This document shows, one piece after another, positions 1 to 56,835 of a DNA stretch of 64,000 nt; the stretch's first letter is position 1, and each line of letters begins with the position of its first letter. The position numbers and the translations under genes are program-made. The stretch is from Geovibrio ferrireducens. Its GTDB lineage: Bacteria; Chrysiogenota; Deferribacteres; Deferribacterales; Geovibrionaceae. Below the pieces are notes generated by a model, which saw only the letters and a list, made by a program, of their open reading frames with translations, was not told the origin of the DNA and did not search any database. The stretch lies in contig NZ_JAJAPB010000006.1 in the NCBI RefSeq assembly GCF_026226615.1, positions 1 through 64,000 of the forward strand, written 5' to 3'.

Positions 1-17
1 TTCCATACATGGAACTG
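1..17. repeat. Truncated copy of a CATGGAACTG palindrome
   Basis: The window opens inside the right part of the palindrome CAGTTCCAT-NN-ATGGAACTG. The same palindrome recurs complete at 141-160 and 56547-56566, where it closes a composite repeat element, so another copy of that element probably lies just left of this window. Confidence 0.6.
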
Positions 18-20
18 TTT

Positions 21-67
21 GCGTCATTGCGAACTCCGCAGGAGTGAAGCAATCTCTCACTTGACGC
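21..67. repeat. GTCATTGCGA-type interspersed repeat (nested hairpin)
   Basis: Outer arms GCGTCA/TGACGC, then TTGC/GCAA, then ACTCC-gca-GGAGT form one nested hairpin. The CGTCATTGCGA...GAAGCAATCTC wording matches a short interspersed repeat that I recognise from many bacterial chromosomes. A diverged relative lies at 27421-27456. It is intergenic and its function is unknown. Confidence 0.55.
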
Positions 68-70
68 TCC

Positions 71-160
71 AAAAACTACATCCTGTGTTTTTTCCGCACA
101 CGCTCGCGCCGTGATAAACACGGCTTCGCTCCGCACGGCGCAGTTCCATACATGGAACTG
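71..160. repeat. Composite palindromic repeat element, copy 1
   Basis: The left palindrome has arms AAAAAC (71-76) and GTTTTT (87-92) around ACATCCTGT. A conserved core from about 97 to 143 begins CACGCTCGCGCC and ends CACGGCGCAG, with an internal hairpin GCCGTG-ataaa-CACGGC (108-124). The right palindrome CAGTTCCAT-ac-ATGGAACTG is at 141-160. Copies 2 and 3 near 56.4 kb keep the core but carry GCCTTGC/GCAAGGC in the stem, so both stem arms have changed together. It lies right after the 3' end of the glyoxalase gene and could also act as its transcript end. Confidence 0.7.
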
Positions 161-164
161 ATAA

Positions 165-34610: not shown

Positions 34611-34721
34611 ATGGACAAGGATTCTTCGCTCTGGGCGGATGCGGAGAGTCTAATGCATTTTCCATGGAAGGAAATGCACCGTAAACACGTACAGCATTAC
34701 GGCAAAGCCGGAAAAATATAG
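34611..34721 (+). CDS. 36-residue small protein in an FNR-type operon
   Basis: An ATG with GAAAGG upstream opens a 36-codon frame: MDKDSSLWADAESLMHFPWK, then a His/Lys-rich end to a TAG at 34719. It sits just downstream of the FNR-type promoter and 13 bp before the zinc-ribbon gene, so both are probably co-expressed. The family is not recognised. The composition (amphipathic start, basic end) and the ribosome-binding site support a real small protein, but this rests on context alone. Confidence 0.55.
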   Translation: MDKDSSLWADAESLMHFPWKEMHRKHVQHYGKAGKI

Positions 34722-37531: not shown

Positions 37532-37654
37532 ATTGCAAAAATCGAACACGAATTTACATCTGACAAATGCCCGCCGTCTCCTGAAAACATGGCGGGGGCG
37601 GGCTTGAGAAACGGCTGTTTTTTAATCAGGAGCTTTTTTATCTCCTTTCACCCA

Positions 37655-37840
37655 AATCAGGGTTGACTTATCGATCTCTTCATAGCAGAATAACTCAACG
37701 GGATTCAGGGAAGCGCGGTTAAAATCCGTCACTGCCCCCGCAACTGTGAGCCGGACGAACGCTCCTTTTCTTCGCCACTGTAATATGTACGGGAAGGCTG
37801 AGCAAGTAGGACGACGGCAAGTCAGGATACCTGCCCCGCG
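37655..37840 (+). ncRNA. Cobalamin (B12) riboswitch
   Basis: The conserved blocks appear in order: AGGGAA, GGTTAAAATCC, ACTGCCCCCGCAACTGT, CCACTG, GGGAAGGC, AAGTAGGA, and the B12 box AGTCAGGATACCTGCC (37820-37835). GTTGA/TCAAC pairs close the upstream stem. It precedes nrdD. Boundaries are approximate. A frame on the opposite strand through this region is not a gene. Confidence 0.95.
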
Positions 37841-37855
37841 GAATAAACTGCCCAT

Positions 37856-54440: not shown

Positions 54441-56264
54441 ATGCACAGAAAACACGTCAATGTCTTCATTGCTTTTCTAATTTGTCTGCAAATACTTATC
54501 GCAGGATGCGGCTCAGGATCGGGCTCTTCAAAAGGTGAGAAGTCAGTATATTCCATGCTGCCTGAACCGGAAACGGGGCATACCGCAACATTCAGTTCAT
54601 CAGGCCTTTTCAACCTCACACAGACCAGCCTTCTCAGCGGACAGATAGGCGATTCGCCCTTATCTGATTACGCCTCATACGCAGCCAGAGATAATATGGC
54701 AGGCTGGGCGTTCGGACTTGACAGGGAAGCCCTTAAAGAAACTTTGGGCGAAAGCGCAGCAGCAAGATACGAGAACAGCATCACGGAATTTATTGACGAA
54801 ATATTCACTCACCCTTCGGTGACCGCCAAGCTCCATCAGGCTGTCGGAAACTTCCCTCTTTTCAGCGGTGTGAATGATATAGCATCCCTGAATACCCTTC
54901 ACTCGGTTGAGTTTAAATCCATCTCCGTGGCAGACGGGGTTTACACCGAAACCGGAGTTCAGAAATCGGTCATTACCCTTAACATTATTCTTCCTTTTGA
55001 GCTTACATCGCAGAATCCTGATCTCTCTGCCTGTTCTGATACAGTAACTGAGATTGAGGCAGATGACAGTTTCAGCGAATTTATCAACCCTGCCGCAGCG
55101 GAATGGGATTATGCAATAAGCGCCAGCCTTGTTTTCTTTGTGGATGACTTAAGCAACAGCCACGCAGGAGCACTCCTCACGAAAAACAGCGATACAGTCA
55201 GCGAGGAGGAGGAAAAAGCAGTCGCGCGGAACTTCGGGCTGATTATATGGTTTCTGGAAAATCTGAACAGCCATCAGATCCCCTCATATGACGCAAAATT
55301 TGTGTTCGGCGCTTCCGGAAACCTGGTTTCATCAACCCTCGGAAGGATACACGGAACAGCTAAAATGAATGAAGACGTTGACTGCCTTATGGCTGTTGAT
55401 GCGCTCATGCCGGAGGCAGCACTCATAATACCCAATATTACAGGCGGCGGGTATCTTGATACGGATTACGAATACTACACCCATACATATAACGATGACC
55501 TTGACGGCGCAAATGAGGGGGACGAGCACGGAGCCGCATGTCTTCATGATAAAGACGGGAAAATTGTGCTGGTGGACGGGGAATCATCCTGCGCTACCGC
55601 CACAGGAACCTATGATTTATCAGACAATCTTTCCGCAGCGGGAAGTTCAGCTCTCTCCGGGACAACTGCGGCAAGGACTGTGCGGACACCTTATCAGAAA
55701 ATCACAATGGAGGATCTCCACTCCCATGATGATACATCTGTCAGAGCAACATCAGGGATATGCAACAAGAGCCCGTGGAGCAGCCTCAGAACCCCCAGAT
55801 TCGGCAGAGGTATAAGACTTGCCGTAAGCGAATGGGCTGTACACGGACAGGTGGCGGACCACTGGAATATCCATTGGTATCAGAGACCCGGCAGCGCCCT
55901 TGCTCAGTCTGCGATAAGCGATGCGGCTTATCTGATCAAGCTCATCGCTCAGGAAACACTTGTGGGCGGCTCATGGTGGGGATTTGCCTTTGCCTCTGCC
56001 GGACAGGCTTATAAATACGCTTCTAAGTTTAATATCTCCATTGCGGGCCATAAAATGGGCGGGGATACCAACAGCCGCATAGGGGATCTTATTGTTGCTG
56101 TAATCCGTTACGGAACAACGGCCACAAGCGTGAAGCAGTATCTCACATCCATCGGCGTATCCGAAACTGTGGACGGCGTAGCCCAGATGATTCAGACCCA
56201 GACTACCGGGTGGCAGGATTACTACAGCGGCTCACACAAAGTATGCGGCTATCAGTTTAATTAG
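54441..56264 (+). CDS. Large lipoprotein of unknown function
   Basis: 607 residues. Lipoprotein signal with lipobox LIAGC (C23), then a Gly/Ser linker. No domain is recognised. The last 200 residues are rich in aromatic residues and Trp (WAVHGQVADHWNIHWYQRP, read in parts; GGSWWGFAFASAGQAYKY), with a C-terminal VCGYQFN. Four cysteines in the mature part could form disulfides. Probably outer-membrane-anchored and facing the periplasm or surface. GGAGGTG precedes the ATG. The upstream terminator may attenuate it. Confidence 0.75.
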   Translation: MHRKHVNVFIAFLICLQILIAGCGSGSGSSKGEKSVYSMLPEPETGHTATFSSSGLFNLTQTSLLSGQIGDSPLSDYASYAARDNMAGWAFGLDREALKETLGESAAARYENSITEFIDEIFTHPSVTAKLHQAVGNFPLFSGVNDIASLNTLHSVEFKSISVADGVYTETGVQKSVITLNIILPFELTSQNPDLSACSDTVTEIEADDSFSEFINPAAAEWDYAISASLVFFVDDLSNSHAGALLTKNSDTVSEEEEKAVARNFGLIIWFLENLNSHQIPSYDAKFVFGASGNLVSSTLGRIHGTAKMNEDVDCLMAVDALMPEAALIIPNITGGGYLDTDYEYYTHTYNDDLDGANEGDEHGAACLHDKDGKIVLVDGESSCATATGTYDLSDNLSAAGSSALSGTTAARTVRTPYQKITMEDLHSHDDTSVRATSGICNKSPWSSLRTPRFGRGIRLAVSEWAVHGQVADHWNIHWYQRPGSALAQSAISDAAYLIKLIAQETLVGGSWWGFAFASAGQAYKYASKFNISIAGHKMGGDTNSRIGDLIVAVIRYGTTATSVKQYLTSIGVSETVDGVAQMIQTQTTGWQDYYSGSHKVCGYQFN

Positions 56265-56291
56265 GGCAGAAAGCAGCAGTATCTGAAAAAT

Positions 56292-56326
56292 CTTCCGCAG
56301 ACCCTCATTTGTGAGGGCTGCGGAGG
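56292..56326 (+). terminator. Stem-loop after the lipoprotein gene
   Basis: CTTCCGCAG-a-CCCTC against GAGGG-CTGCGGAGG, about 14 bp with one mismatch. No adjacent U-run. Confidence 0.5.
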
Positions 56327-56332
56327 TTAAAC

Positions 56333-56372
56333 TATTTTATATATCTTTGAATAGTGCCCATCAATTCTTCGA
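56333..56372. repeat. 40-bp direct repeat A: duplicate of the csoR 3' end
   Basis: 39 of 40 bases are identical to 56579-56618, which is the last 13 codons or so of csoR with its stop. Here the stop reads TAG instead of TAA. The two copies bracket 206 bp holding composite repeats 2 and 3. Confidence 0.85.
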
Positions 56373-56379
56373 CTTGATA

Positions 56380-56455
56380 GTAAAATCAGTGCATCCTGCC
56401 TGATTTTACACACGCTCGCGCCTTGCAGAGCAAGGCTTCGCTGCGCACGGCGCAG
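56380..56455. repeat. Composite palindromic repeat element, copy 2
   Basis: Left palindrome GTAAAATCAG (56380-56389) / CTGATTTTAC (56400-56409) around GCATCCTGC; core CACGCTCGCGCC...GGCGCAG at 56411-56455 with hairpin GCCTTGC-aga-GCAAGGC. No separate right palindrome before copy 3. Confidence 0.75.
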
Positions 56456-56470
56456 ACTCTTTCCCTGATT

Positions 56471-56566
56471 ATTCAAAATTTACCATCCATGGAAATTTTG
56501 AATACACGCTCGCGCCTTGCAAAGCAAGGCTTCGCTGCGCACGGCGCAGTTCCATCCATGGAACTG
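56471..56566. repeat. Composite palindromic repeat element, copy 3
   Basis: Left palindrome ATTCAAAATTT/AAATTTTGAAT (56471-56503) around CCATCCATGG; core 56505-56549, hairpin GCCTTGC-aaa-GCAAGGC; right palindrome CAGTTCCATCCATGGAACTG (56547-56566). The core differs from copy 2 at only one or two positions. Confidence 0.75.
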
Positions 56567-56577
56567 TAGGGCTTTAA

Positions 56578-56835
56578 TTATTTTATATATCTTTGGATAG
56601 TGCCCATCAATTCTTCGATGGCGGCGTCAGGGTGGTCTTCCTTGATGGCGGAGGAAACGCAGCTTTTCAGGTGTTTTTCCAGAACCATAAGCGTGACCTT
56701 GTCAAGCCCGCCCCGCACGGCGGAGATCTGGTTCACTATGTCTATACAGTATGAGCCGTCCTCCACCATGCGGATTATGCCGCCTATCTGCCCCTGAATT
56801 TTTTTCAGCCTGTCCAGAGTATCGGCGTGTTTCAA
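56578..56835 (-). CDS. csoR: CsoR-type Cu(I)-sensing repressor
   Basis: 85 residues, all-helical DUF156 fold. The Cu(I) ligand set C30-H55-C59 has the same spacing as C36-H61-C65 of characterised CsoR. It releases DNA when copper binds. Last gene of copA-copZ-csoR, overlapping copZ by 4 bases. The matching operator lies in front of copA. Its 3' end is the source of the 40-bp repeat at 56333. Confidence 0.94.
   Translation of the reverse strand: MKHADTLDRLKKIQGQIGGIIRMVEDGSYCIDIVNQISAVRGGLDKVTLMVLEKHLKSCVSSAIKEDHPDAAIEELMGTIQRYIK

Follow-up and report, generated by a model that had tools for sequence, protein, structure and literature searches.

The sponge RNAs CsrB and CsrC, together with RsmX, RsmY and RsmZ, are encoded by dedicated sRNA genes; their hairpins, arranged in series, have CAGGANG or ANGGAN loops to which proteins of the CsrA/RsmA family bind. 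CsrA is a dimer, hence the paired sites. The repeat in CsrB is CAGGA(U/A/C)G, the SELEX consensus for CsrA is RUACARGGAUGU, with ligand stems that mostly have four or fewer pairs, and the hexaloop of RsmE is ANGGAN with variable N (PMC7652899). According to one survey, sponge sRNAs of the CsrB/Rsm class had been identified only in Gammaproteobacteria; CsrA binding was also proposed, on motif grounds, for the TwoAYGGAY RNA (Rfam RF01731), which has two hairpins with AYGGAY loops (PMC4333381). Among mobile repeats, the REP/BIME sequences associated with RAYT (Y1) proteins are short, extragenic, palindromic, composite and of high copy number (PMC2817692), and the MITE-like RU-1/2/3 repeats of enterobacteria are mobile, intergenic and 100-170 bp long (PMC2759123).

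The element described here lies behind csoR in the window, the whole 64-kb stretch of Geovibrio DNA that was analysed, and shares features with each of these systems. It resembles the sponge RNAs in its hairpin series and loops but, whereas those are dedicated sRNA genes, its hairpins belong to a repeat, apparently spread by insertion, in more than 100 3' UTRs. By shape, TwoAYGGAY is the nearest candidate, as both have two hairpins; the element differs in its ANGGAN and CAGGANG loops and in being a dispersed 3' UTR repeat. The RF01731 model gave no match at csoR or in 13 genomes including those of the genus, control genomes being silent too, and no Rfam family scored above threshold at csoR. 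The element is mobile and intergenic like the RU repeats, but differs from them in its CsrA-type loops on compensated stems and in gene-end duplications that vary in length. No earlier description was found in the literature searched on CsrA with repeats, sponges and 3' UTRs or on Geovibrio repeats. From the evidence below we hold, with moderate confidence, that a composite repeat was inserted after csoR with duplication of the gene end, and that its family adds CsrA-type hairpins to mRNA tails. The features of the locus, in the direction of csoR, are as follows.

56578-56835, minus strand: csoR, copper repressor (open reading frame; Pfam Trns_repr_metal PF02583, 1.7e-28)
56564-56618, minus strand: gene-attached copy of the csoR 3' end, 40-bp core 56579-56618 (repeat family D1)
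56547-56566, minus strand: 5' (C) hairpin CAGTTCC-AUGGAU-GGAACTG, with a loop of the CANGGANG type
56504-56549, minus strand: repeat core 1, whose inner stem varies (R1 match 56503-56567, 91.5 bits, E 1.2e-19)
56471-56503, minus strand: 3' (B) hairpin, loop CAUGGAUG
56456-56470, minus strand: tail or spacer between the two elements of the csoR composite
56410-56455, minus strand: repeat core 2 (R1 match 56409-56468, 59.2 bits)
56380-56409, minus strand: 3' (A) hairpin, loop CAGGAUG
56373-56379, minus strand: TATCAAG, the tail of the element where it meets the free csoR-end copy
56318-56372, minus strand: free duplicate of the csoR 3' end, 40-bp core 56333-56372 (family D1; compared by alignment to the one csoR end in G002)
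56284-56324, minus strand: terminator-like hairpin beside the free duplicate; on the csoR sense strand CCGCAGCCCTC..GAGGGTCTGCGG is followed by ATTTTT, as read from the sequence

CsoR is a metal-sensing repressor encoded by the last gene of copA-copZ-csoR. The initial annotation had noted a duplication of its gene end bracketing a block of repeats, and this is confirmed: 56333-56372 and 56579-56618 are identical at 39 of 40 positions, an ungapped extension (56318-56372 against 56564-56618) covers 55 nt at 87%, the copies are spaced by 246 bp, and chance is excluded. The second copy is indeed the genuine end, in which the csoR frame terminates; the first is free and adjoins the terminator-like hairpin, between csoR and a 607-aa open reading frame. 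The segment between the two, in which the initial annotation had placed composite repeats 2 and 3, contains a 46-bp repeat twice (56410-56455 and 56504-56549; 98%), accompanied by three hairpins and short spacers. The sole mismatch in the core, from which an old event had been argued, is a synonymous change of an Ile codon (ATT/ATC), and the non-coding part of the copies differs at several positions; the single mismatch is therefore a poor clock. The 607-aa frame (54441-56264, plus strand) is lipoprotein-like, had no Pfam match at 0.001, and neighbours csoR in the congener G002 too, but not in G001.

An empty site with one copy, which the initial annotation had suggested seeking in relatives, is present in the one-contig genome of G002, where csoR has a single 3' end without any repeat and again adjoins the lipoprotein-like frame. 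The csoR locus of G001 also lacks the element, although its neighbour differs. The CsoR orthologues are 98% identical in G002 and 93% in G001. The insert was thus either gained on the lineage of the window or cleanly lost from both others. Target sequence directly repeated on either side of the insert, together with a one-copy empty site, is the signature of insertion with target-site duplication, and lends support to the earlier proposal of an insertion that duplicated the gene end and kept the gene intact. The free csoR-end copy has the TAG stop and the ATT codon in common with G002, and the gene-attached copy has the bases just after the stop in common with it; by this comparison either copy may be the ancestral one. 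At a further locus of the window's genome, L136, the distal copy continues into bases orthologous to the G002 gene end and its downstream sequence, the product expected of insertion with target duplication. At csoR and L136 alike, the last gene-end copy borders on sequence that does not belong to the element and that at L136 is ancestral by comparison with the congener.

The initial annotation had regarded the unit of about 246 bp as a stand-alone element, whereas it proves to be a composite of a genus-wide repeat family. A DNA search gave 62 matches in the window's genome, and covariance model R1 scored at least 131, at least 124 and at least 131 matches across the genus's three genomes, 131 being the full number of candidates given to the model. 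Outside the genus R1 matches are few and diverged, the best being in G007 (E 5e-10), and an exact-pattern scan of 84,980 genomes of a public collection returned, among records other than those of the window's own genome, only the MAG Deferri_01; a scan of viral contigs with the element pattern found none. The same repeats, which it had seemed worth looking for at other gene 3' ends, are present at many. Two further features were recognized within the window, the first having a C loop without GGA (AUGUAU).

97-161, minus strand: second in-window copy of the element, after a gene 3' end (R1 86.6 bits, E 1.7e-18)
34655-34691, plus strand: possible solo hairpin remnant, TTCCATGGAAGGAA (R1 15 bits, E 0.087)

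Gene-end duplications were examined at targeted loci of the three Geovibrio genomes, chosen mostly by model score: 99 stretches, with 108 clusters and 221 elements. The sequence beside the element recurs with a score of at least 30 in 51 of the 105 clusters compared, as opposed to 18 among 315 mismatched pairings. A stricter filter retained 31 cases at about 30 loci, with aligned duplicated lengths of 17-91 bp, though a handful among the shortest or the non-coding could represent other repeats. The typical array runs gene, element, gene end, element, gene end. Because the duplicated sequence is different at every locus, it is best described as a long, variable target duplication and not as the att site of a recombinase. 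A tyrosine-integrase element, which would duplicate the same core everywhere, does not fit these locus-specific stretches, and the site-specific insertion claimed earlier is not upheld: there is no fixed att site, and each locus duplicates its own gene end over a variable length. The duplicated stretch starts with GA in 12 of the 31 cases against a background of 7.5% (p 1e-6; family copies being related, this and the p-value below are optimistic). Such a start matches the element tail ..ACAGA, and points to a GA target preference or to microhomology joining. In the arrays at L154, L196 and L211 the terminal element is of another type, as though new units had entered on the gene side of an older one. 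At L178, elements 0-2 have chimeric 3' hairpins in which a B-type 5' arm and an A-type 3' arm are unpaired, unlike those of the last element.

The element consists of two hairpins whose stems change freely with compensation and whose loops, CANGGANG and CAGGANG, are nearly fixed. Stem positions are 98.4% paired, compared with 81.7% in shuffles, and 13 pairs have double changes. In 84 of 97 clusters the upstream gene reads in the same direction as the GGA strand, against 43 of 96 in the mirror test with the downstream gene (p 6e-10), although single-locus calls are rough, the ORF heuristic for orientation having miscalled the csoR cluster itself. Within 60 bp of a stop codon, same sense exceeds opposite sense by 52 to 2. 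Non-Watson-Crick stem pairs on the GGA strand comprise 48 G-U and 9 A-C, an excess that identifies the GGA strand as the folding strand; however, G-T is likewise tolerated better than A-C in ssDNA, which leaves room for an ssDNA hairpin. On this strand the stem is conserved in pairing and not in sequence, as expected of a CsrA site. Judged by sequence, the element is probably a structured RNA of the sense-strand 3' UTR.

The loops conform closely to those of CsrA and RsmE sites, namely an ANGGAN hexaloop closed by C-G, or CAGGANG. Among 85 distinct 5' (C) hairpins, the loop reads A (84), N, G (79), G (80), A (85), N, each N position taking all four bases, and C-G closure is found in 85/85. Central GGA occurs in 144 of 151 distinct 3' hairpin segments, with CAGGANG in 89 and CANGGANG in 49. 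The GGA sites are paired, with one 5' and one 3' GGA hairpin per complete element. Against CsrA binding, the element stems are longer than those of the SELEX ligands. The window's genome encodes one CsrA, with L4 and R44, which we take to be key RNA-binding residues; most members of the order have a CsrA, so that having one is not diagnostic. G003, from a different genus, harbors a repeat family with an unrelated core and the same two loop types; this genome has 108 TTCCANGGANGGAA hairpins, against 0 in reversed controls. G011 and G037 have one different-core, same-loop element each, with weak model scores. That the loops persist where cores and stems have been exchanged argues most strongly for the loops as the working part, and we infer that the elements form a dispersed set of putative CsrA-binding 3' UTR hairpins. 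The G003 loci L294-L323 carry this unrelated-core family, which has tandem arrays with a period of 223-249 bp and the same GGA loops; no orientation bias was seen for this family in a small sample (4:4).

How the element arrived can be viewed in several ways. It could be a REP/BIME-like mobile palindrome in which the hairpins are DNA sites for a transposase and the GGA loops serve transposition, as the high copy number, extragenic location, composite arrays and target duplication would allow. REP stems, however, are usually conserved, whereas those of the element change freely while the loops stay; the sense-strand 3' UTR bias and the long gene-end duplications also set it apart. Membership of the RAYT/REP group entails a cognate Y1 (TnpA_REP) transposase, and no Y1_Tnp/RAYT gene is found in the three genomes of the genus (G000, G001 and G002); we regard this origin as unlikely. 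Tandem duplication at the hairpins by replication slippage or microhomology-mediated template switching, with no transposition, is as a full account slightly less doubtful. It would explain the GA/CAGA microhomology at junctions and the many exact tandem arrays, but simple tandem slippage, which the initial annotation had set against insertion, is insufficient alone: the last gene-end copies at csoR and L136 lead into non-element sequence, orthologous to the congener at L136, and an empty site exists, on which grounds pure slippage is rejected for the first arrival at these two loci. Slippage or template switching likely explains the growth of arrays and not their first arrival.

A retroelement-like, non-autonomous RNA moving by target-primed reverse transcription would account for variable duplications of 17-91 bp, a fixed tail and the sense orientation. 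It is nevertheless highly unlikely, for no RVT_1 protein is encoded in G000 or the single-contig G002, and only one in G001. A yet slimmer chance attaches to Campbell-type homologous integration of small circles carrying the element and a gene end, which would yield the same product of gene end, element and gene end. It requires an unexplained source of circles already holding the right gene end, and homologies of 17-40 bp are short for RecA.

Returning to insertion with duplication of the gene end, we infer the route, the binding of CsrA and its consequences for the operon or as a sponge along the following lines. A composite copy of the dispersed repeat would have landed just after the csoR stop, duplicating some 40-55 bp of the gene end, through a trans-acting or replicative step in which the element tail (..ACAGA) is joined to a gene end, often at GA; recombination between the gene-end copies would later lengthen the arrays. 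The copA-copZ-csoR mRNA would then bear three stem-loops with exposed GGA loops, bound by CsrA dimers. At this single site, the stability or expression of the operon may change, and more than 100 such transcripts together could soak up CsrA, like a CsrB/RsmZ sponge distributed over mRNAs. A bolder and more tentative possibility is that of a self-spreading RNA regulatory system, in which repeats settle behind stop codons, preserve the gene by duplicating its end and turn host mRNAs into CsrA decoys or targets; a distributed sponge, in place of CsrB-like sRNAs, would then set CsrA activity, and mobility would rest on a mechanism not yet described. If this is right, a mobile repeat writes CsrA sites into many mRNA 3' ends at once, and a post-transcriptional regulon or sponge is built by transposition. 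It would also provide a candidate CsrA sponge in this phylum, for which, to our knowledge, none is known. The gene-end duplications mark an insertion process that could be traced in closely related strains.

Many contig ends of the window's genome (in C3, C4, C5, C6, C9, C11 and C19) fall within elements, and the assembly therefore probably breaks at element arrays. A second dispersed repeat, GTCATTGCGAAC..GTGAAGCAATCTC, is found near or inside several arrays, at window positions 1-90 and at L117, L126 and L178. Finally, the window also contains a cobalamin riboswitch at 37643-37852 on the plus strand (85.8 bits, E 9.9e-20).
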